From Marivirga atlantica (lineage in GTDB: Bacteria; Bacteroidota; Bacteroidia; Cytophagales; Cyclobacteriaceae): a DNA stretch of 64,000 bases. The notes below the pieces were generated by a model. The model searched no databases, was not told where the DNA came from, and saw only the letters and a list, made by a program, of their open reading frames with translations. A program made the position numbers and the translations under genes. The stretch covers positions 124,001 to 188,000 of the forward strand of contig NZ_JAERQG010000004.1 of assembly GCF_016734805.1 (NCBI RefSeq). Reading direction: 5' to 3'. Positions 13,277-62,586 of the stretch are shown in pieces. Each line of letters starts with the position of its first letter. The stretch's first letter is position 1.

Positions 13277-16200
13277 TTATTGTAACCCAAATCTAATTTG
13301 TACACCAAAAGCTGTATTTGTGGTAGGAAACGAATTAGTCAACTTAGGCTCATTAAAGTTTCGTTGGTAGTACAAATTAAGATTAAGACGCTCATTAACA
13401 GTATAGTTAACTGTTGGCCGGAGTTGGAAATTCAAATTTCCATCAACAGTTTCACTATCACCATCACCAACTGAACGTTGAATAGTTTCCGTATCCCTGA
13501 CTGTTACGCTCAACTGCATTGTTAAATCATTTTTGAGAGAAACAACTCTACCTTTCACTTTAAAAGGCAATTTGAAGCTAGGGTCGGTAAAGCCTATATC
13601 AAGCACAAAGTCGTTACTACGCTGATCGGTTAATTGAGATGTTGATGTACTAAGAGCCAGGTTTCTTTCTTTTCTGTATTCTACTTTAGCGGTTAACCTG
13701 CCTTTTGTTCTAAGATTAACCCCTATCAGTGGTGAGAATTTTTCAGATATTAATACCTGACCAATATTATAAACTGGTAAGTAATAACCGCTATCAGCAG
13801 GTTCTGATGGAAAAGGATAGTTGGTAATACTATTATTTAAGTTAATTAGACCCTCATTATCATAGGTCGTATTATTCACATAATTACTAACGTTGAAGGT
13901 AGAAACATACGAATGGCTCAGCGTTACTGAAGGGAACACTTCTTTTATAGCTTTAATATTACTCAAACCTTTATAGTCCACTCGCCAGTTCGGCAGAGGA
14001 ATCTGAGGAAAAGGATTCAAATCAACCTCATTAGCACTTTTACCTCTATAGGCTGCCAGAAATGCTGGAATTAAAACATCTTGTTGGTTAAGTAAATAGA
14101 ATGCACCTTCAGAATCATTAGGGTTTGCCTGTTCTAATCTTTGCCTGATTATCTCTCTGTTTTCTCTGAATTGTTCGAAGATTGGTGCATCATCTTCCGT
14201 AGATTTTGTGAAGGCTGTATTGATAATGCTATAACTCAACACATAGTTACCACTTCTGGATGGTGTTAGGTTATCAAATCGATCAAGAGATTCCACATAC
14301 CTGAAATTCTCCTGATAATTATCATTAATTACTCTGTTAAAATCTAACTGAACGTTTAAGTCTTTAGCTGGCTCCAGTATTGCCTTCAGATTAATACTTT
14401 CGACCGTAGACTGAGTGAAAAAAGCATTCTGAGACTCTGATTTGGTTAACCAATCATTATCTGCCGCTCTAAAGCGAATATCAGCATCCTGATTACCAAA
14501 AATGAAGGGTAAGCCCGGAGCATTAAAAGAAGAATCTAAACCAAACAGATATGGCCTATACCTATAACCTGGTAATAATGTTCCTCCTCTTAAAGAATAT
14601 GAACCAGTAACATTTTTTACAGACATTAATAACTTTAAAAGCCCTTTCGTCAATTTACCTCCCGGTGATTGAAAAGTGGTGTCCTTCTGACCAGCACGTA
14701 ACCTAGGAGGATTATTAATTTGATTAAGTATTTTCACCTTATTATAAAGCTTATTCATATTAAGGCCAGCATTAATACCGTATTCCGAACTGTTTTGTAT
14801 TACATGACCCAATGAATCTATCTGACCTAATGAGCCTGAAGTCCAGTTGAAGTCAACTTTATATCTTAAATCTGCCGTAATCCAGTCTGTAAAAGGTATT
14901 TTATTTAAAGGAACCGTATATCCGGTCACAACACTTTGATCGAAAGACTTCATCCTACCTAAATTACTCAGGTTATTCAATATGGAATCATTTTTAGCTT
15001 CTGTGTTTATTTCTCCGGCAGGCTCATCAATAATAGCAAAAGCTCTGGCTGTATAATTCACATTCAAATTTTGCATTAAATTCCAGTTCAGGTTGTAAGA
15101 CCTCGCCATTGTAAAACTCTTTTCAAATTGAGGTTCTATACCATCAATAGTAAGTCTATCATTTCTTAACTGGGTCTTAATATAGCTTCTATCCAAATCT
15201 GCCCTAAAGCCAAAACTTGCCGGTAAAGGATTGATGTTGATATCTTTTATGATTTTAAGATAAGGTGATTTAAGCTTCTCTGAAGTCTCGAATGGTGCCA
15301 TACTTCCATTAGGGAAGGTATAATTATAGCCAACGGCTCCTTTATAATTTCTATTTTCATATGATGCCGTTTGCAGGTTACTTCTAGTTTGTTCGCTGTA
15401 AGCATAAGTGAAGTCGAAATTAGAAATGGCAATTGGCCACGCTAGTTTTTCAGTGTTCTTTCTCTCCTTTCTAACATTAGTAAAGTTGATACTTCGCCTT
15501 CTCTCCTGATCTATAACAATGTTGCGGTAATTCTCTCTTTCTTCAGCATCTTCAATACCCTGCAGAGCGGCAGTCAGCGGTATATCCGGGTCTGTGGGAT
15601 CAAAAAATGGAACTGCTGTGAAAGTTTGATAGCCTAAATACATCGGTATTTTAATGCCGCTTTCTTCCTTAAAGAACTTACCCAGACTAATATTGGCTGA
15701 AACATCAAAACCAGTTGAACGCTCTCTGGTACGCTCAGATATATTTTGCTCAATACCACCAAAACCAACAGATGTATACTGAGTACTAGTAGTGATATTA
15801 GCGAAATCGGCCAACTGTGTATTAAGAGTCGCATTTGCTGCCCAACCTGATGTTTGATCAAAGTCAGTAACACGCATCTCATTTGCCCAAATACAAATAT
15901 CTTTTGGTGCGGAGCCTCCTCCTCTAGGATTTCTTAGACCAATCATAATCGTTTGCAGAGAACTCATATCAGGCCTACCTCTTACTGTTAAGGTATACTT
16001 ACCGAACTCTTCTGAATAAGGAAGCAGCACATTATTGATGCCTAAAGATCTATTTCTTCTTGACTTTAATTGATAAAGCTGATCAAACGCCAGGTTTATT
16101 TCATTCTGTTCTGGCCATATTACTGCCGGATCTATTGACTGATAAGGAGTTATTTTTAACGGAAGTTCTATTTCGTAATAGTTGTCATCAAAGTCAGTAC

Positions 16201-19200
16201 CCAGCCTTACAAAAGCAACTACTTCATCATCCGTTGCATTAGGACTTTGCGCATGTAAAAACATCTTAAGTCTGCCATAATTTACCAAATCAAAATTCAC
16301 ATTCTTGAAAGCTGCTACGGCCTCGCCATCTTCAAAATCATCAACACATAATTGAATGGATTGCTCATTTTGTCTTACCTGATTGGCAGCGGCTGAAATG
16401 TCCTGATCTCTCTGAATACCAGGTGGAAGAACATAAGGCACTTTACCTTCTCCGGTTTCAGAATTAGCTTCTATACTAACAACTGATACGGTTAAGTTAG
16501 CATCCTTATTCTCTGGTGTTTCCGAAATGCCACTTTTGGCAAGAGAACCCTGATACTCTCGCCACTGAGAGCCCACTAATCTAAAATCAGCCATTCTTAA
16601 CACGGCAGGCTGCTGAAAATCTGTTAAAATAGTTCTGATGTACCTGATAGACTTATAACCATTTATACCGCCAAAAGAAGCCGAAGGTTCACGTATAGGA
16701 ATCCTGAATAAATACCACTTAACACCTTCATCCTCTGAAGTTGCTTCATCAACGATAAGTGGATTGTCTGCAACACTTAACTGATCTTTACTTAGTGCCA
16801 CTTCATATTCGTAATATTCTTCTAGTGTTGCTACAGTTCTGTCATTATTTAGATCTTCACTATCAGGTGTTCTAGAGCCTGATGGATTGAATTCTTGATT
16901 ATTGGTTGCTATTGGTGTGTTATTCTCGTAGTTGTTGAAATTCTTGTATCGTTCAAGAATTGAAGCTTGTCTTGCATCAAAATCATCACCTAAGAAATAT
17001 CGGAAGTTGTCAGCCGAAGGGTCATTAATAATGGCTTCCTTGGCTTCAGCAGAGATACCGGCATTACCATTGATCTCGTCAATAAATTCTTGAAAAAAAG
17101 CTGCTTCTTCATCATTTCTCACACCATCTAAACCCACATCCTGATTCTCTCTGGCACCTGCTTGATTGGAAAAAGCCTCATTAATAGGCGCATCTCCAGG
17201 TACTCTGGCAAAATCCGTTATCACCACATCCGCTCCATTGTTGTCCTCAGGCAGACCATTTTCATATGATAGCTTATTATCCGGAAGTAAATCTTCGGAA
17301 ACACTTCCTAAGTGAAAAATCAATTTTCCACCCGTTGTATTTGAGGTAGGATTTGTAGAACCATCATCGATTACACCACGAGGCGTGTCAATGAAAGGAT
17401 CAAGCATCCAGAACTCAATATATTCAATGTTAGCCTTATCAAAATCAACTTCTGAAGTTACTGCCCTGGTAATACCTCCCCAGTTTTCTCTTGGGTTCTT
17501 GAGCATTCCATCAGTTGTTAAGTCGGAAGTGTAATTGTACATACCTCTCTCAGAAGGATAATAAGCTAAATTGAAGACTGGAAGCGCATTAATACCAATA
17601 TTTCTATCTCTGTTTTTATATATCTCCTGTGGAGCAATGAAACGAGAATAATGGTTTTGCAAAGAAGCTTCAGAGATTTCAGGAACATTCGCTCCGTTGG
17701 TATTATATATAATCTGTTCAATTTGATACCACGCCAGCTTTGCTCTCTTCTTATTGGCTGCATATTTTCCCGATCCTACATATCGGTTGTCGTTTGTCTC
17801 AGGCGTTGAGGCTATATTCCAGCTAGTTACATCTGATCCCAAATTATTAATGGTAACCGATTGCTCAAAGTCATCTATATAAGAAGCCCCCTCACCATTT
17901 ACTTGATTTGACGTTCCAGGAATCATCTGAGCAAATTCACCTCTAAAAGTTACGGTTGATGGCGCCTTGGTATCAATAAATGGAATAGCGTCTACAGCTT
18001 TTGTTAGGAATGGTGCTTCACTACTGTAGTTAATATCAAGTCCCCATTTAGTATTATTTGTTGGTTCTGAACCGATAGAATATCTCGACACACCTAAAGG
18101 ACGTTGTGTATGTCTTAAAACGGTAGCTCCAAAGTTAATTTTATCACTAATGATGTAATCGAAGCGGGTACCGATTAAAGATTTTGATTGAAAGTTGAAT
18201 AAATCTTCTCGTTCAAAGCTGATGGTGATGTCTCTTCCCGAATTTAAAATACCTTGATTAAGTATGGTTACCCTTCCCAGATTAGGATCAACACGATAAT
18301 CAATGTTAGGTGTTAGTTGCGTTCCACCAGAGCTTACCACTACCGATTCTGGTGAAATATTAATTCCTGGAAGTGCAATTTCTGTTGATGAGCCACTTGC
18401 ATATTGCCCTTTAATGAAGAATTTATCTTTGGAGGTAAGCTGTTGCGCATCGTTTTTGGTTGATTCATATAGCGTATTAAATACATACTTACCTTTAAAC
18501 GACTGTTCTTCCTGCAAAAAGAGCTCATTTAGGCTCATTCCGAAAGGTTCAAGCACTGGAAATATAATTCTACCATTAGATTCATCTATGGTCACATCAG
18601 GTATGTAGTCAAAATTACCATCAGGCTGTGGATCACCATTTTGGTTAAGACTATCAAGATTGAAAAGTCTTAATAATGGAATATCCTTCAAAGAGCTTTC
18701 GTGCAAACTTGGGTTATCCTGACCTGTTCTATCATCTCTGTAAATGATTCTTAGCTGAAAATTATCTTGAGTGATCTGATTACCTGGTAAGTTGTAAATA
18801 TTCTTCATCATCAAATCCCAGGTAGGCGCATCAATATTTACCTTTGAAGGTCTTAGTAATTTTAGAATAGCCACTTCATTATCAGCCCTAACACCATAAG
18901 TTTCTGATAATTCACCGACAACAAATCTTTGTCCATTATAAGAGTATTCATAAGACACAGCCAACATCTCATCGTTCTGTAATTGTCTTTGTAGACTAAC
19001 ATAGCCGAGCCGGGCATCAAAAGTATATTCAGAAGCTTCCAGTTTTCTGGCCACATTAATCGCCTCATAATCTTCCGTTCTTGTGAGATCCGGATCAGCG
19101 CTAACAGCATCAACAAATGAATCATAATCCTTAGGATATGACTGCACCTGTGACCACAAGCTGTTAATTTGATTATCTGTAGGAAGATTTCCTTGTTGGT

Positions 19201-35386: not shown

Positions 35387-36478
35387 ATGAAAAAGTCTAT
35401 AACTTCTTTACTAGTAATCTTTACACTATCTATAGGAAGCGTTTTTGCCCAATGTACTGATAACGGTACTCTTAAAAATAGTGGAGCATCTGATGTTTTC
35501 TTATTTTCTGATATCATTAACTGTCCTAATGGAGATGTTACTATTACAGATGCAGGTGGTAATGGTGTATTAAGGTTTGCTTCAGACGTTACCTTAAATA
35601 GTTTAAACATAGTCTTTCAGAATGGTAATAAGCCAATTACTATTGAAATACCAAGTGGAGTAACTGTAACAATTACACAAGGACTTACTTTTGGCGGTCA
35701 GCCAGATAAGGATAAGTTTTTGGTTGTTGAAGGCAACTTAAATGTTGGCGAAACTCTTGACTTCGGAAGCATTCAATTTGAAATAGATGGCACAGGTACA
35801 ATAAGTGCTAAAACCATTACTGGTGGTGGAGATACTACTTGTTCTCCAGGTTCTGGTGGTTCAGGCACTTGCCCTACTATGACTGCTGAATCATGCTCAG
35901 GAGGTGGAGTATGTAATGATGGTAACTTCACGTTACCAATAGTACTTAAATCATTTGAAGGTGAAGTAAAATTTGAAAGAGTAGTGCTTAGTTGGGTTAC
36001 AGCCAAAGAAGAGAATTTCTCACATTTTGAGATTGAAAGAACAACCGATAAAGAAATTTATGATCCCATTGGATTTGTTCAAGGTTTAGGTGAAAGCCTT
36101 TCAGACGTTTCATACGACTTTACAGATAACAATCCTCCTTATGGCAATATTAACTATAGGCTAAAGTCAGTTGATATTGATGGATCATTTGAATATTCTC
36201 CTATTATTCAGGTAATAAATAGCTTTGAGGGCAAAGTAAATCTTTCACCTAATCCTGCTAACTCTATTTCAAACATCAGAATTAACCTACCATCTTCTTT
36301 TAATGATAAGGTTGATTTGGTATCGATATATGACTTAAATGGTACTCTAATATCTCAACTAATGAATGTAGATGCTTCTTCTGATTTAAAGTTTGATAGA
36401 CCTTTAAAAGCTGGGATGTACATCATAAAAGTACAGCATAACGGAGCGGAAGAGAATTTAAGGTTATTAGTTCAGTGA
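35387..36478 (+). CDS. Type IX secreted protein with sorting domain, copy 1
   Basis: The start is the ATG at 35387 (MKKSITSLLVIFTLSIGS), which gives a clean signal peptide ending FAQ; an upstream start at 35360 would put 9 residues in front of it. Residues about 24-165 are a Gly/Asn/Thr-rich beta-roll-like region with a cysteine-rich loop (TTCSPGSGG, TCPT, ESCSGGG, VCND). Residues about 182-275 begin LPIVLKSFEGE and end in SFEYSPIIQV, a common linker-type beta domain. The C-terminal 75 residues are a type A sorting domain: KVNLSPNPAN, VSIYDLNG, LKAGMYIIKVQHNG. This domain directs export through SprA and attachment to the surface. Passenger function is unknown. Confidence 0.9.
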   Translation: MKKSITSLLVIFTLSIGSVFAQCTDNGTLKNSGASDVFLFSDIINCPNGDVTITDAGGNGVLRFASDVTLNSLNIVFQNGNKPITIEIPSGVTVTITQGLTFGGQPDKDKFLVVEGNLNVGETLDFGSIQFEIDGTGTISAKTITGGGDTTCSPGSGGSGTCPTMTAESCSGGGVCNDGNFTLPIVLKSFEGEVKFERVVLSWVTAKEENFSHFEIERTTDKEIYDPIGFVQGLGESLSDVSYDFTDNNPPYGNINYRLKSVDIDGSFEYSPIIQVINSFEGKVNLSPNPANSISNIRINLPSSFNDKVDLVSIYDLNGTLISQLMNVDASSDLKFDRPLKAGMYIIKVQHNGAEENLRLLVQ

Positions 36479-36676: not shown

Positions 36677-37849
36677 ATGAAATCAAATTTATACACAATA
36701 GTATTATTTATCTTTTACTCGACAACCGTTCTTGGTCAAGGTCCTTTTACCTATACATCTAGCAGCAATAGTGGTATTCAAGATTGGACTCAAGACGCAA
36801 CCTGGAGCAGAAGTAGTCCGGGACTTGCTTGGCCGCCAAATACTCCAGGCCAGCCAAATACCCACGGTAATTTCGGTCAGGCTAACATTAATGGTTATGT
36901 AGCCATCAATTCTGGAGGTCTTAACGTGGCAAGTGCCAGTCCTTTGATAAGAGTGATAGATACCCTCTTTATCAAGGGAAATGTGACTTTGGCTTCAAGT
37001 GCAAGTATGTCAGTTGAATCAGGAGGTTTATTAGTTGTCGATGGTGATTTAGAACTCAATGGTTCTTTTGATATGGACAATACAGGAACTGTAGTCGTTA
37101 CAGGAGATTTAGACGTACTTAATGGCAACATGACCAATAGTAGCAAAGTATATACTTTCGGAAATACTAATGTGACTGGCGGAGGTGATATCAATGGCTG
37201 TGATGGCTATTCTGCATGTGACTTTACAAGTTCAATTAGTTCACAAAGTGACCTAGCCAATGAAAATGAAAACCTTTACAATTTTGTGTCTTCAGGAGGT
37301 ACTTTACCTATTGTACTTAAATCATTTAATGGTGAATTAAGATTTGAAGAAGTAGCACTTAATTGGGTTACAGCTAAAGAAGAAAACTTTTCACATTTTG
37401 AGGTTGAGCGATCAACAGAACAAAAGAAATTTGACCCAATAGGTTTTGTACAAGGCTTAGGTGAGAGCCTTTCAGATGTAGCTTACGATTTCACGGATAA
37501 CAATCCGCCATTTGGTAAAATATATTACAGATTAAAGTCCGTTGATATCGATGGATCGTTTGAATATTCTCCTATTATTCAGGTAAAAAATAGCTTTGAA
37601 GGCAAGGTGAAACTTTCACCTAATCCAGCTAACTATAGTTCAGACATCAGAATTGACCTACCATCTTCTTTTAATGATAAGGTTGATATGGTATCGATCT
37701 ATGACTTAAATGGTACGCTAATATCTCAACTAATGAATGTTGATGCTTCTTCTGGTTTACAGTTTGATGAACCTGTGAAAGCTGGTATGTATATTATTAA
37801 AGTGCAGCACAACGGAGTGGAAGAGAATTTAAGATTATTGATACAGTAA
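36677..37849 (+). CDS. Type IX secreted protein with sorting domain, copy 2
   Basis: This 390-residue protein has a signal peptide (about 1-20, ending VLGQ). The passenger (21-210) is unlike that of copy 1 by eye: it begins FTYTSSSNSGIQDWTQDATW, has a hexad-like beta-helix pattern (IDTLFIKGNVTLASSASMSV, GTVVVTGDLDV) and only two cysteines (GCDGYSAC). The last ~180 residues, from LPIVLKSFNGE, are highly similar to copy 1 and end in the same sorting domain (KLSPNPAN, VSIYDLNG, KAGMYIIKVQHNG). The passenger is therefore variable and the export module conserved. Function unknown; secretion by the type IX route is well supported. Confidence 0.9.
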   Translation: MKSNLYTIVLFIFYSTTVLGQGPFTYTSSSNSGIQDWTQDATWSRSSPGLAWPPNTPGQPNTHGNFGQANINGYVAINSGGLNVASASPLIRVIDTLFIKGNVTLASSASMSVESGGLLVVDGDLELNGSFDMDNTGTVVVTGDLDVLNGNMTNSSKVYTFGNTNVTGGGDINGCDGYSACDFTSSISSQSDLANENENLYNFVSSGGTLPIVLKSFNGELRFEEVALNWVTAKEENFSHFEVERSTEQKKFDPIGFVQGLGESLSDVAYDFTDNNPPFGKIYYRLKSVDIDGSFEYSPIIQVKNSFEGKVKLSPNPANYSSDIRIDLPSSFNDKVDMVSIYDLNGTLISQLMNVDASSGLQFDEPVKAGMYIIKVQHNGVEENLRLLIQ

Positions 37850-56462: not shown

Positions 56463-57233
56463 TTATGAAGTCCAGTTGATTGTTTCAACTGCTACTCCAT
56501 CACTATAAGTAATGTATGTACCTTCTGTACCAGCCGCATTCCAGATAATTTGAGAAGTTATTATAGATTGACTTGAGCTATTGATTTCATATATACCCAA
56601 AGATCCTGAACCATCTGAAGCTATATTAAAAATCACCTTTTCATTGCTAGAACTCCATGTCATATTAAATGACCCATCTACAAATTCCTCCCAATTGTAT
56701 GAAAATAAAACACCACTATTTTCTTCTAAACCGTACCAGCTTAGGCTACCTACTCTTAAATCGCCTTTGCTTTCTCTTCCCTCCAATAGTTTGTAATAAT
56801 TATCTGAATTGTATTTGTAGAATATCTCAAATACATAATCATCATTATCTTCACTTAGTTGATAGGCATAAGTGACTGAATTAACACCGTCACTCGCTGT
56901 CCATGTATATACACGGAATGAAGCTGCAGTTCTTTCATTAACTCCTGTGATGGGTGTAGTGCTATACTCGGCACCTTCAGGAACTTGAAAATAGCCATTA
57001 TAAGTAGTTAAAGCATTTACAGATGCCGCAAAACCGTTTACAATTGCTGTATATTGATTTGATGAGTTTTGCATAGCTGATGGCAACTCAACTGGCGGAT
57101 TTTGCGCGTCAAACTCTAAAGCTTCAATTGGATCTTCCTCTTCCGGAGCTACTTCATCATCTGATTTACAAGCAAAAAGTGCTATAAAAATTAAGCTTAA
57201 CAGGCTTAGTCTGAGTGATTTTAATTTTAACAT
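56463..57233 (-). CDS. Hypothetical lipoprotein
   Basis: This 256-residue lipoprotein has the lipobox LFACKS (Cys 22), followed by a very acidic spacer (DDEVAPEEEDPIEALEFD). The body is a beta-sandwich-like region with several Ser/Asn/Tyr-rich strands and ends in VETINWTS. No family is recognised. It is monocistronic, with its own promoter and terminator, and is expected on the outer-membrane surface or inner leaflet; Bacteroidota lipoproteins with an acidic +2 region are often surface exposed. Confidence 0.75.
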   Translation of the reverse strand: MLKLKSLRLSLLSLIFIALFACKSDDEVAPEEEDPIEALEFDAQNPPVELPSAMQNSSNQYTAIVNGFAASVNALTTYNGYFQVPEGAEYSTTPITGVNERTAASFRVYTWTASDGVNSVTYAYQLSEDNDDYVFEIFYKYNSDNYYKLLEGRESKGDLRVGSLSWYGLEENSGVLFSYNWEEFVDGSFNMTWSSSNEKVIFNIASDGSGSLGIYEINSSSQSIITSQIIWNAAGTEGTYITYSDGVAVETINWTS

Positions 57234-57258
57234 ATCTTGAATTTCTAAATTGATGAAT

Positions 57259-57266
57259 CAAATATA
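57259..57266 (-). promoter_or_regulatory. -7 promoter box (TATATTTG) for the lipoprotein gene
   Basis: The minus strand reads TATATTTG with TTTA (3 of 4 to TTTG) exactly 19 bases upstream. The predicted leader is about 20 bases. Confidence 0.65.
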
Positions 57267-57333
57267 ACAGAAAGAAATTTTACATTAAAATAATTACAAT
57301 TTTTATTTTAATTTTTATGTTTTACCTATCTAA

Positions 57334-58032
57334 TTATTTAAGCTTATACCTAAAGCCAAATCCAATATTCAGATAACCTCCTTTATCAATTATGGTATTA
57401 CTTTGCATACGTTGAAAATCTTGGTATTCACTAATTCTTGTTCTTTCAAGCTCTTTTAATCCATGCATTAAGCCAATTGTGTTATAAATTGACCATTTAT
57501 TAGTTAGATTGAATTCTAGTCCTATGGCTGTTTCTAACAAACCATAGCTCTTATTGTAACGCTTCTCTATAGTGTAACCATCACCAGTGCTTCCTATAAA
57601 TTCTAACGCTTTGTAAGAATTAGGATTAAACCCAATATGATAGCCTAAGGTGGTATTAAGGAACAGTTTATCTTTAAGCAAGGCAATTTTTGAATTGATC
57701 CGCAAAGGAATTTGAAACCTACTTAAAATGGATAAATTGGTGCCTGATGTATTATTTTCATCAATTCTGATAATATAACCGGTTGAAAATGGCTTGTAGG
57801 TAAAACCTGTTTCAATTGAGATCAAACTATTTAATTGATAGCCTATATTAAAGGTGGTAGCTGGTTCAACAAAATGTGGGTAAGGCGGTTCTATTGAGCT
57901 CTCCGGATTACTTAAGGTGTACTGATCTTGTACTATAGAAGCTTCTAACCCTATATAAAGCTTATTCTGTGCTTTTACAGCGTACTTTACTACAAAGACA
58001 CTAATGAATAATATAAATAATTTGGTTCTCAT
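57334..58032 (-). CDS. Outer-membrane barrel paralog, copy 1
   Basis: This 232-residue protein has a signal peptide (about 1-22, ending KAQN) and repeated amphipathic strands: KLYIGLEASIVQDQY, LISIETGFTYKPFSTGY, FQIPLRINSKIAL and the last strand YLNIGFGFRYKLK. It belongs to the same family as the two proteins encoded downstream (58052-59576), with about 30% identity by eye. The gene starts 19 bases after copy 2, so they are probably cotranscribed. The role is unknown. Confidence 0.78.
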   Translation of the reverse strand: MRTKLFILFISVFVVKYAVKAQNKLYIGLEASIVQDQYTLSNPESSIEPPYPHFVEPATTFNIGYQLNSLISIETGFTYKPFSTGYIIRIDENNTSGTNLSILSRFQIPLRINSKIALLKDKLFLNTTLGYHIGFNPNSYKALEFIGSTGDGYTIEKRYNKSYGLLETAIGLEFNLTNKWSIYNTIGLMHGLKELERTRISEYQDFQRMQSNTIIDKGGYLNIGFGFRYKLK

Positions 58033-58051
58033 TTTAGTTGATTCGTTTAGG

Positions 58052-58783
58052 TTAAACTTTCTGGTTCTTTGATTTTCCTAAATTCATCTTCAAACCAAAG
58101 GTGAAAGCATTATAACTACCATTATTAATTACAGTATTTGATTCGGATACACCATTACTATTTTCATACTGCACATTATGCCTGCTAATCGTTTGTTGTC
58201 CCATTAATAAAGCAAAATTCCCATAAACTGACCATCTTTTATCGATTGAATAATTAAGCCCAAGACCTGCCTCAACTAAATCGTAGATGTTCGTGTAAAC
58301 TTGCCTAAAGGCAGATACATTTTCATTATATCCTGAAGAATTACCTTGACTGCCATAAGAAAATTCGGTTAATGGTTGTATAATTTCTCCTGACTCACCA
58401 TAATGATAAGCTACACTCGGCTGTAGAAAAAGCTTTCTTTTAATAATTGCAATATTTGATTTTATTCTAATTGGTATTTGAATTCTATTTCCTGAAGTAT
58501 AACCTCCTGCATGTTTAGAGGTAGAGTAACCATCATAAAAAGATTTAGATATCAATCCTGTTTCCAGATGTAACCAGTTAAATACTTCATAACCTAGCAA
58601 TAAACTCACTGCCGGTGCCTCGATATAAGATAAATCAGGCCCTTTGATTCGGTTTGAATACGAAGTTATGGCTTTGTCTTTGGTAGCCATAAACTCAAAA
58701 GCCGTATAAAACTTACCCTGTGCATTAAGTCTAGAAAAAGATAATAGACCGATGAGCACAAATACTAATGCTTTAATTTTCAT
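58052..58783 (-). CDS. Outer-membrane barrel paralog, copy 2
   Basis: This 243-residue protein begins MKIKALVFVLIGLLSFS, with a signal peptide ending LNAQ (about residue 21). The barrel pattern matches its neighbours: FNWLHLETGLISKSFYDGY, IQIPIRIKSNIAIIKRKLFL, GLGLNYSIDKRWSVYGNFAL and a last strand FTFGLKMNLG. A 92-bp leader including the first eight codons is almost identical to that of copy 3. It is followed by copy 1 after 19 bases. Confidence 0.78.
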   Translation of the reverse strand: MKIKALVFVLIGLLSFSRLNAQGKFYTAFEFMATKDKAITSYSNRIKGPDLSYIEAPAVSLLLGYEVFNWLHLETGLISKSFYDGYSTSKHAGGYTSGNRIQIPIRIKSNIAIIKRKLFLQPSVAYHYGESGEIIQPLTEFSYGSQGNSSGYNENVSAFRQVYTNIYDLVEAGLGLNYSIDKRWSVYGNFALLMGQQTISRHNVQYENSNGVSESNTVINNGSYNAFTFGLKMNLGKSKNQKV

Positions 58784-58852
58784 AGTGGTTGATAGTTAAG
58801 TGTGAATGTTTTTTTTAACTATCTATTAACTGATCGGATAATTGATAAATTG
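58761..58852 (-). repeat. Duplicated leader, copy A (in front of barrel paralog 2)
   Basis: These 92 bases include the first 23 coding bases of copy 2. They are identical to the copy at 59554-59646 except for one base change and one extra T in a T-tract. The leader contains a hairpin GATAGTTAA/TTAACTATC (58791-58823) that ends seven bases before the ATG. Confidence 0.9.
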
Positions 58853-58868
58853 TACTCCCTATGGAAAT

Positions 58869-59576
58869 TTAAATCAATTTCTTTAAATTATTAAGGCGAT
58901 AGCAGAAACCGAGTGCCATATTTATGTAGTTACCTTTATCTATAAAGACATTGCTATCAACTTTCTCATTCCCTTCATATTCACTAATAGATGTGCGTTC
59001 TACTTGGCTAAAGCCCTGCATCAAAGAAATGGCACAGTAAAGAGACCAATCATCAGCAATTTGATAACTGATACCTGTTCTGATTTCAACAAGATGGTAG
59101 TTTGTATTACTGTCTCTATTGATAACAAAAGTCTTTTCCCCTGCCGAAATCCTTTCACTTCTAATATTATCGTTAGGATTAAAGCCTAAATGGTATGCCA
59201 GGGAGGCATCAAAAAATAATTTTTCATTATTCAGATTTGTATGGATGTTTAATCTAATTGGAATCTGATATCTATTTATCACCTCCTCATTGGTAGCCTG
59301 AATTGTTCTTTCATCTATAATCACTCTAAATCCATTGGTATAGGGCTTATGTATAATACCTGATTCTACAGATAAATAAGGCTTAAATTGATGGCCAAAG
59401 TATAAAGAGGTTGAAATGTTTGAGTAGGCCGTAGGTTGTGTAATATTACTATCGAAATTTTTAGTTTCTACCCGGTCGATTACGTGTGATAGATCTGCTT
59501 TTAAATAAAGATTGCTCTGAGCATTTAAGCGTATGCAGGCAAACAGGCTAACGAATACTAATGCTTTAATTTTCAT
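58869..59576 (-). CDS. Outer-membrane barrel paralog, copy 3
   Basis: This 235-residue protein has the start MKIKALVFVSLFACIRLNAQ (signal peptide ending at about residue 20) and barrel strands LYLKADLSHVIDRVE, LSVESGIIHKPYTNGF, QIPIRLNIHTNLNNEKLFF, LVEIRTGISYQIADDWSLY and the last strand INMALGFCYRLN. It is the most upstream member of the three-gene array. It is separated from copy 2 by 85 bases that hold the duplicated leader, so it is probably transcribed separately. Confidence 0.78.
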   Translation of the reverse strand: MKIKALVFVSLFACIRLNAQSNLYLKADLSHVIDRVETKNFDSNITQPTAYSNISTSLYFGHQFKPYLSVESGIIHKPYTNGFRVIIDERTIQATNEEVINRYQIPIRLNIHTNLNNEKLFFDASLAYHLGFNPNDNIRSERISAGEKTFVINRDSNTNYHLVEIRTGISYQIADDWSLYCAISLMQGFSQVERTSISEYEGNEKVDSNVFIDKGNYINMALGFCYRLNNLKKLI

Positions 59577-59646
59577 AGTGGTTGATAGTTAAGTGTGGAT
59601 GTTTTTTTTTAACTATCTATTAACTGATCGGATAATTGATAAATTG
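59554..59646 (-). repeat. Duplicated leader, copy B (in front of barrel paralog 3)
   Basis: The second copy of the leader described at 58761-58852, with the same hairpin (GATAGTTAA 59584-59592, TTAACTATC 59609-59617) and the same first eight codons. Confidence 0.9.
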
Positions 59647-59699
59647 CCTAACCCTATAAAAATAGATTAAATATTTTTCAACCTCTGGTTGAAATAAAA

Positions 59700-59724
59700 G
59701 ATCCCCGCTTTCGCGAGGATGACG
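59700..59724. repeat. Palindromic REP-like repeat, unit 1
   Basis: ATCCCCGC/GCGAGGAT forms an 8-bp stem with one mismatch and a TTTC loop, followed by GACG. The GATTCCCGCnnnnGCGGGAATGACG type of unit is a common interspersed repeat in Bacteroidota. Confidence 0.65.
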
Positions 59725-59753
59725 TTCTAAGGGAATTAAGATATGCGTTTTGA

Positions 59754-59780
59754 CGTCATTCCCTTGAAAAAGGGAATCTC
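59754..59780. repeat. Palindromic REP-like repeat, unit 2, inverted
   Basis: CGTCATTCCCTT and AAGGGAAT form a stem; the CGTCA end shows that this unit faces unit 1 in the opposite direction, 30 bases away, as in paired palindromic elements. Confidence 0.6.
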
Positions 59781-59813
59781 AGAAAATCTGATTGAAAATT
59801 TCTTTATGAGGTA

Positions 59814-59993
59814 CTAATCTCTCTTACTATTTTCAGATAATAGATAAACACCGAGACCACCGTTAAATAGCGGACCAATTAAACCGAAAATTGAAAAGGG
59901 ACTAATTTCTGCTTGCCACTCATAGATGTTTACTGCCAACCATATGAAGTTGATTAAAATAAGTAAATAAGCTAAGGTTCTTTTCCCAAACAT
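59814..59993 (-). CDS. Small membrane protein of 59 residues
   Basis: An open frame from the ATG at 59993 (MFGKRTLAYLLILI) to a TAG encodes 59 residues with two hydrophobic segments (about 7-22 and 34-52) joined by a short polar turn (YEWQAEIS). The pattern of a two-helix hairpin with basic N-terminus and a charged C-terminal tail (SENSKRD) looks like a real small membrane protein, but there is no family I know. It lies alone between repeats and the nrdA terminator. Confidence 0.55.
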   Translation of the reverse strand: MFGKRTLAYLLILINFIWLAVNIYEWQAEISPFSIFGLIGPLFNGGLGVYLLSENSKRD

Positions 59994-60034
59994 GATAATT
60001 CTGTAATTAAGTTTTAAATTTTATTAGCATGAAA

Positions 60035-60060
60035 AAGCCACCCAATTTCTCAGGTGGCTT
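60035..60060 (-). terminator. Terminator after nrdA
   Basis: A perfect 8-bp stem AAGCCACC/GGTGGCTT with a 10-base loop, followed on the minus strand by TTTTT, lies 31 bases after the nrdA stop. Confidence 0.85.
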
Positions 60061-60090
60061 CAGGATATGAATAAATAAACGTGTATTAAA

Positions 60091-62586
60091 TTAAGATCCG
60101 CACATTTCGCAATTGTCAGGATCATCAAGTGAGCAGGCTACTTGCGCTGCCTTTAAAGCTGCTAAATCGTCTTCCGCAGTTTGTGCCTGAGGCGCATTAC
60201 CTGATGCAGGAGTGTTGCCCTGATTAGGAGCCGGACGATTCACTTTTGTTGCAGTATTAGTATTAATATCCTGCTGCGTATTCTCTTCCGGCTTTGGCTC
60301 TCCTAATTGTGATTTATCAACCGTGAACTGAATAGCACTTGTAGCAGCCTTCGATCTCAAGTAGTACATACCTGTTTTCAAGCCTTTCTTCCATGCGTAG
60401 AAATGCATTGAAGTCAACTTACCAAAGTTAGGATCTTGCATGAACAAGTTCATACTCTGCGACTGACAGATATAAGCTCCTCTATCTGCCGCCATATCAA
60501 TTACTGACTTCTGAGAAATCTCCCAAACAGTTTTGTATAGCTCCTTAATATGAGCAGGAATTTCAGGTATATCCTGAACAGAACCATTAGCTGCAATCAG
60601 CTTATTCTTCATGTTATCATTCCAGATACCAAGCTCAATTAAATCATGCATTAGGTGCTTATTCACTACTACAAACTCGCCAGACAAAGTTCTTCTGGTA
60701 TAGATGTTTGAAGTATAAGGCTCAAAACATTCGTTATTACCTAAAATCTGTGAAGTAGAAGCTGTTGGCATTGGCGCCACTAATAAGGAGTTACGCACAC
60801 CATGTTTCTTCACTTCTTGCTTCAGGCTAGTCCAATCCCATCTTTCAGTTGGCGTTACATTCCACATATCAAACTGGAAAATACCTTTTGATACCGGAGA
60901 GCCTTTATACGTTTGATAAGGACCTTCAGCAATAGCCAAATCCTTAGATGCTGACATAGCTGCAAAGTAGATCGTTTCAAATATCTCTTTATTCAGCTTG
61001 CGTGATTCTTCCGAATCAAACGGGAAACGCATCAATATAAAAGCATCAGCTAAGCCTTGAACACCTAAACCAATTGGTCTGTGGCGCATGTTTGAATTCT
61101 CAGCCTCTTTTACTGGATAATAGTTTACATCAATTACCTTATTCAGGTTTTTAGTTGCTGTATAGGTAATATCATATAACTTCTGGTGATCAAAATAAGG
61201 TGCTCCTTGCTCATCTTTATCAACAAACATTGGTAGCGCTATTGAGGCCAGGTTACAAACTGCCACTTCATCTTTAGAGGTATACTCCATAATCTCCGTA
61301 CATAGGTTTGAAGATTTGATAGTACCCAGATTCTTCTGATTAGATTTATTGTTTGCCGAGTCTTTATACAACATATAAGGCGTACCAGTCTCTATTTGAG
61401 ATTCTAACACCTCAAACCATAAATCCTGCGCTTTAATGGTTTTTCTACCTCTACCTTCACGCTCATATTTCTCGTAAAGCTTAGTGAAATCTTCACCGTA
61501 AGCCTCATCTAAACCTGGGGCTTCATTCGGATCGAATAGTGTCCAGTCTGCATTAGATTCAACTCTTTGCATGAACAAATCAGAAACCCAAAGGGCATAG
61601 AACAAATCTCTTGCTCTCATTTCTTCTTTACCATGATTCTTTTTCAAGTCAAGGAAATCGAAGATATCAGCATGCCAAGGCTCAAGATAAATCGCGAAAG
61701 AACCTTTACGTTTTCCACCACCTTGATCTACATAACGAGCAGTCATGTCGAAGTTTCTTAGCATAGGAACTATACCATTAGACACACCACCTGTCCCTTT
61801 GATATATGATCCTGTTGCTCTTACATTATGAATGCTTAAACCTATACCACCGGCTGACTGCGAGATTTTTGCTGTTTGTTTAAGTGTATCGTAAATACCA
61901 TCGATACTATCTTCCTGAATTGTTAACAAGAAGCATGAAGAGAGTTGAGGTTTAGGAGTACCCGCATTAAATAATGTTGGTGTAGCATGTGTAAACCATT
62001 TTTCTGACATTAAATTATAGGTGTTGATAGCTGCATCAATATCTTCACCATGGATACCAATTGCTACACGCATCAACATATGCTGCGGACGCTCAACAAT
62101 TTTACCATCAACCTTCATCAGGTAAGAACGCTCCAAAGTTTTGAATCCGAAGTAGTCGTATCCAAAATCTCTATCGTAAATAATAGCAGAATCTAACTGT
62201 GCAGCATGCTTTTTAATAATGCCGTAAGTTTCTTTCGAAAGTAGAGGAGCATTTTGCTCAGTTTTAGCATCTACATAAGTGTATAAACGCTTCATTGTAC
62301 TTGAAAAAGACTTTGAAGTAGTTTTATGTAGGTTTGATATAGCTATTCTGGCTGCAAGCTTAGCATAATCAGGGTGCTTTACCGTCATGGAAGCAGCTGT
62401 TTCAGCAGCCAGGTTATCAAGCTCCTGCGTGCTTACGCCATCGTAAATACCATTGATTACTTTACGAGCAACATCAATTGGTTGAATGTAATTTAAGTCC
62501 AGCCCATAGCATAGCTTTTCTATGCGGCTGGTAATTTTATCAAATTTAACGGACTCTCTTCTTCCGTCTCTTTTTAATACTAACAT
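60091..62586 (-). CDS. nrdA: Class Ia ribonucleotide reductase large subunit
   Basis: NrdA reduces ribonucleoside diphosphates to deoxyribonucleotides. The N-terminal ATP-cone (about 1-90, [16 protein letters not shown]) binds the activity effector. The catalytic domain holds the active-site cysteines in LSSCFLLTI and [11 protein letters not shown], the ACPTASTS-like [11 protein letters not shown] and the DPNFGKLTS segment. The C-terminal CEMCGS tail reduces the active site with thioredoxin or glutaredoxin. A long Asn/Pro/Thr-rich linker (about 770-815) lies before the tail. It follows nrdB by 109 bases. Confidence 0.97.

Follow-up and report, generated by a model that had tools for sequence, protein, structure and literature searches.

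Two neighbouring, diverged genes for secreted barrel-like proteins in Marivirga atlantica, here called A and B, share a tract of about 92 bp, made up of the leader and the first 7-8 codons, that was probably copied recently from one gene to the other, most likely by gene conversion. The two genes lie within the 64,000-nucleotide stretch of DNA analyzed here (the window), and the features on which the argument draws are collected in Table 1. The near-identity of the two copies is best explained by recency, and we set out below why descent from a common ancestor would not be expected to leave such a pattern, and what the relatives of these genes suggest about the leader itself.

Table 1. Positions within the window of the genes, shared block copies, inverted repeats, and terminator-like sites around the barrel array.
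Feature	Positions	Strand	Description	Basis
Gene C	57334..58032	-	232-aa barrel protein	ORF
Gene A	58052..58783	-	243-aa secreted barrel-like protein	ORF
Shared block, copy A	58761..58852	-	92 nt = 69 nt leader + 23 nt coding sequence	
9-bp perfect inverted repeat, copy A	58791..58823	-	loop 15 nt	
Gene B	58869..59576	-	235-aa secreted barrel-like protein	ORF and homology to C and A
Shared block, copy B	59554..59646	-	93 nt = 70 nt leader + 23 nt coding sequence	
9-bp perfect inverted repeat, copy B	59584..59617	-	loop 16 nt	
Two terminator-like hairpins	59676..59720	-	upstream of the B leader	consensus scan
nrdA (presumed)	60091..62586	-	ribonucleotide reductase large subunit; nearest large gene on the upstream side	ORF

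The array is read from the minus strand, where two genes that by their sequences appear to be nrdB and nrdA are followed by a small ORF and then by barrel-like genes B, A, and C. The small ORF, read by eye between nrdA and the array, has about 59 codons (59814-59993), and the intergenic stretch at 59690-59790 is palindromic, with the look by eye of a REP-type repeat and with two terminator-like sites in or beside it. The three barrel proteins are homologous, at pairwise identities of 30% (A-B), 35% (B-C), and 28% (A-C). C scores just at the curated cut-off for OMP_b-brl (PF13505, 28.7 bits) and A falls below threshold for the same Pfam family (17.3 bits), while B has no Pfam match above a cut-off and is not listed for OMP_b-brl. 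C follows 19 nt behind A and is without the shared leader.

The initial annotation had described a nearly identical leader in front of two diverged genes, and its coordinates are exact. On the minus strand, the copies differ by one C/T substitution and by a run of eight or nine A (A8/A9), the only homopolymer difference between them, which sits in the leader; the proteins behind them share 30% of their residues. Downstream, the identity ends after 23 nt of coding sequence, that is, 7 codons plus 2 nt, and codons 8 and 9 are different codons for the same residues. Upstream, it ends at 58852/59646, and the next 30 nt are weakly alike in A and B (22 of 500 shuffles score as well). In both genes, the block runs into the reading frame in register, and the two copies are direct repeats that enclose B at a spacing of 793-794 bp. 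Our search of the whole genome (4,189,030 bases) for the unit elsewhere, a check that the initial annotation had proposed, returned these two places only, both in the barrel array. Within the window, it is the only near-identical direct repeat of at least 30 nt listed by the repeat search, and in a 384-kb sample of the contig, with the window in it, the 40 longest close direct repeats, this block apart, all fall in a 2199-codon frame, a 1358-codon frame, or one tandem gene array. A 25-base piece of the block has no exact match in the genome_contigs or viral_contigs sets, from which this organism's own records were possibly left out.

What sets the block against simple descent is the history of the rest of these genes. 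In a protein tree built after A, B, and C had been trimmed of their signal-peptide ends (20-22 residues each), B pairs with C with support of 97/93, and A lies outside. A and B sit on long branches (1.85 and 1.65), which makes their placement less certain than the support value says. If B pairs with C and A lies outside, then A and B should not share a leader by descent alone; C is without it. The codons point the same way. Past the first ten aligned codons, A and B use the same codon at 28 of the 62 positions where they encode the same residue, as against 7 of 7 inside the block. Identity in the tract thus greatly exceeds that in the remainder of A and B and stops at bounded edges, and the sharing of the tract disagrees with the tree built from the rest of the proteins.

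The genus-mates add a third line of evidence. A homologue of the barrel gene is present in eight of the nine, one in each, with none found in G004; in G003, the nearest genus-mate by nrdB (91%), it is the ORF listed directly after nrdA, in the same place as the array described here. Among 295 family genomes, this one (G000) alone has three copies of the barrel gene, and neither a three-gene array nor a state that would precede the copying was found in the other genomes of that set of 295, which includes our own. With the best 3 candidates scored per genome, the block matched none of the nine genus-mates; across the 295 family genomes, again by the best 3 candidates in each, 18 others match, over no more than 51 bases at a time and at E values above 1e-4. 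If the whole leader had been held at 98% identity since the genes split, then relatives should keep it, and the nine genus-mates do not match. Non-sister genes that share a leader and identical synonymous positions, together with this absence from the genus-mates, argue that the leader was copied after the genes had diverged. The initial annotation had left two readings side by side, and these three observations favor its suggestion of copying by gene conversion, whereas long selection on the whole 92-bp leader fares poorly.

The mechanism we infer is most likely gene conversion or another form of local recombination. In homologous recombination within the tandem array, a short conversion tract would have allowed the leader and start of one gene to overwrite those of the other. 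Counting against conversion, the flanking similarity that would help it is now borderline, as the shuffles given above indicate. The direction of copying, from B to A, is a guess, made because the B copy lies behind the terminator-like hairpins, where a promoter would be needed. The consensus scan found four such sites in 57200-60100 against a mean of 1.1 in shuffles, a count that is not evidence of function. Judging from the two sites upstream of its leader, B is probably transcribed from a promoter of its own, located inside the shared block or immediately ahead of it, within about 100 nt that are mostly block. If that promoter had been copied in front of A, then A, and after it the closely following C, would be placed under the same start signals, and both would now be governed by those of B. 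Matches to sigma-70-type promoters are no more frequent than chance would give (13, with 14.1 expected), and TAnnTTTG, which is enriched in front of the sampled genes (39 of 155; 18 in shuffles), does not occur in the 110 nt upstream of A and B.

An unlikely alternative is that a whole unit was gained. A leader-gene unit of about 793 bp may have undergone recent tandem duplication, after which a diverged allele took the place of one of the two bodies; or recombination at the leader may have inserted a leader-B unit. Either event would explain the same direct repeats as conversion does and is only less simple. The repeats flank B in such a way that a deletion between them would leave leader-A-C, and the presence of one homologue or none in the genus-mates implies that this lineage acquired units or that others lost them. 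On the other hand, duplication followed by replacement takes two events, and the pairing of B with C is what long membership of the array would give, although a B imported from a strain that has this array would look no different.

The other explanation offered in the initial annotation, that selection kept the leader as a regulatory element, either an RNA hairpin or a protein-binding inverted repeat, while the genes diverged around it, seems to us unlikely, although the hairpin itself is a real feature of the sequence. It was said to end seven bases before the ATG, and a perfect 9-bp inverted repeat, GATAGTTAA/TTAACTATC, does end 7 nt before the ATG in both A and B. No such repeat arose in 300 dinucleotide shuffles of either 70-nt leader, and the A and B leaders fold better than shuffles over those 70 nt (z -4.5 and -4.8; -2.5 and -2.7 with coding bases included), which speaks for selection, as does the restriction of the full inverted repeat to these two leaders within this genome. 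Perfect 9-bp repeats are nevertheless found upstream of 9 of 153 other sampled genes (11 of 155 with A and B, against 2.0 in shuffles), in a sample that relies on crude gene calls and in which some repeats may be terminators of the preceding gene. Nor would selection on the leader by itself explain the identical synonymous codons that follow it. As to a described RNA family, a search of 57200-60200 gave three weak matches, none at the gathering score and none on the leader. The hairpin as the operator of a regulon was considered and rejected: the full repeat is nowhere else in the genome and occurs in 3 of the 295 family genomes (our own, G160, and G226), a number equaled by the reversed control. 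The shorter repeat TAGTTAA-N13..20-TTAACTA was likewise rejected: it is present in 5 of 10 genus genomes, counting this one, but in the relatives it lies away from the barrel gene, and it is rarer than its control.

Conservation of the hairpin in orthologs is partial at best. G001 and G002, whose proteins are 99% identical and which are therefore counted as one lineage, have an 8-bp stem with a loop of 10 that ends 5 nt before the ATG and has the core ATAGTT/AACTAT in common with A and B; 12 and 6 of 300 shuffles reach a stem as good. Beside this core, as read by eye, the pair is G-C in A and B and A-T in G001 and G002, a change on both sides of the stem. This is the one stem-keeping change that came of looking for compensating substitutions; A and B have identical arms, so that no such change can be counted between them. 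In favor of selection, this one lineage has a stem with the same core, as would be expected if a regulatory leader were partly old, and some of the leader may thus be ancient and under constraint. The other six of the eight homologues have nothing comparable, with no perfect stem longer than 6 bp before the start and with 28 to 299 of 300 shuffles as good near the ATG. Over 70 nt, the leaders of G001 and G002 fold no better than shuffles (z -0.48 and -0.36), and all eight homologues range from +0.13 to -1.67. The homologue in G002 and G001 (L007 and L008) has an in-frame stop at codon 6, within the signal peptide, in both of these near-identical copies; the gene is possibly inactive or started elsewhere, and the stop weighs against selection for its leader.

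Shorter elements may have a longer history. AGTT(A) aligns upstream of several other homologues, a point in favor of some selection. TATACT-N16-AGTTAA, with exact spacing, precedes the barrel gene in four of the eight (L004, L005, L009, and L011) and is the sole match in each of those four genomes, where the reversed control gives 1 to 4 each; by eye, G009 has it with one mismatch, and A and B have just the AGTTAA part. This could be a promoter or operator. An AACT-N4-AGTT dyad lies 27-38 nt before the start in four of the eight homologues (G001, G002, G006, and G008; loci L005, L007, L008, and L011), representing three lineages, and is absent before A and B. To judge from these matches, an inverted AGTT element may have belonged to the promoter or operator of these barrel genes for a long time. 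The same age does not hold for the complete 92-bp block. Long-term selection over the entire leader is accordingly disfavored, while a role for the inverted repeat itself is possible.

The leader could act as a promoter, through its inverted repeat as a binding site for a protein, or as an RNA hairpin damping initiation. Both starts have A at -3 and -6. In Flavobacterium johnsoniae, A at -3 helps initiation and structure near the start tends to hinder it (PMC6847099). The A and B leaders resemble Bacteroidota starts without a Shine-Dalgarno sequence in having A at -3, and a hairpin so near the start could in principle tune initiation; by this analogy, the leader hairpin might damp translation.

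A more speculative possibility, which we regard as improbable, is that the leader and first codons act as a recombination handle in an array of surface-protein genes, with direct repeats through which whole leader-gene units could enter, leave, or replace one another without breaking the frame. If this were true, strains would vary in the first barrel gene behind a common start region bearing the hairpin.

It is hardly credible that a small mobile element or interspersed repeat accounts for the block: two near-identical copies of mostly non-coding DNA would suit such an element, but no third copy was found in the genome, the block enters both frames in register, and its 25-base piece is without an exact match in the contig sets. 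An interspersed repeat was rejected on the ground that the copies number only two, both in the barrel array and none at unrelated positions. The initial annotation had held that an unconserved hairpin together with a unit at random places would undo its proposal; this combination is not what we see as a whole, for the hairpin is mostly unconserved, but the unit is no interspersed repeat. A phage or plasmid origin was also rejected, as the B region has no match in phages and the B protein none in plasmids, with none confirmed in viral contigs. Relatives of gene B were likewise not confirmed in genome_contigs.

Copying of a short tract between neighbors, the reading we prefer, may have a parallel in the same contig. 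At L079:13050-17845 (contig C9:201050-205845) lies a tandem array in which a small gene comes after every larger one and which looks by eye toxin/partner-like. Two of the small genes (14667-15140 and 16098-16577) have a common 125-bp 3' patch that is 99% identical, and their first 60 codons are poorly alike. We count this coding-sequence patch in favor of conversion; one of its edges fades gradually, which we count against. Elsewhere in the window, a 300-nt direct repeat (35930-36229 and 37301-37600), 81% identical with copies 1371 bases apart, lies in neighboring frames of 389 and 401 codons.

If the copied tract carries a promoter, such an event would be a quick way to put a diverged paralogue under the start signals of its neighbor. 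The A/B pair is also a clean small example of how recent copying can make near-identity in a non-coding leader suggest more conservation than exists. The mechanism proposed is an ordinary one, gene conversion between paralogues. The opa loci of Neisseria, one of the systems that invite comparison, are dispersed. As here, opa genes are multi-copy surface-protein genes that swap tracts within one genome, but they carry coding repeats that switch the frame, whereas the A8/A9 homopolymer difference between A and B lies in the leader (PMC13183285). Paralogue conversion in bacteria has been documented for RF1/RF2 (PMC4530459) and measured for Salmonella tuf (PMC5485169). A contiguous tract was copied between paralogues in both systems, as we propose for A and B, but within coding sequence, whereas the A/B tract is mostly leader. 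Comparable too are babA/babB of Helicobacter pylori, paralogous outer-membrane genes that, like A and B, have nearly identical terminal sequences and undergo conversion between loci (PMC3444412). In that pair, the N- and C-terminal sequences are both common and exchange is seen among isolates (PMC3444412), whereas A and B have in common the leader and 7-8 codons only, in one genome.
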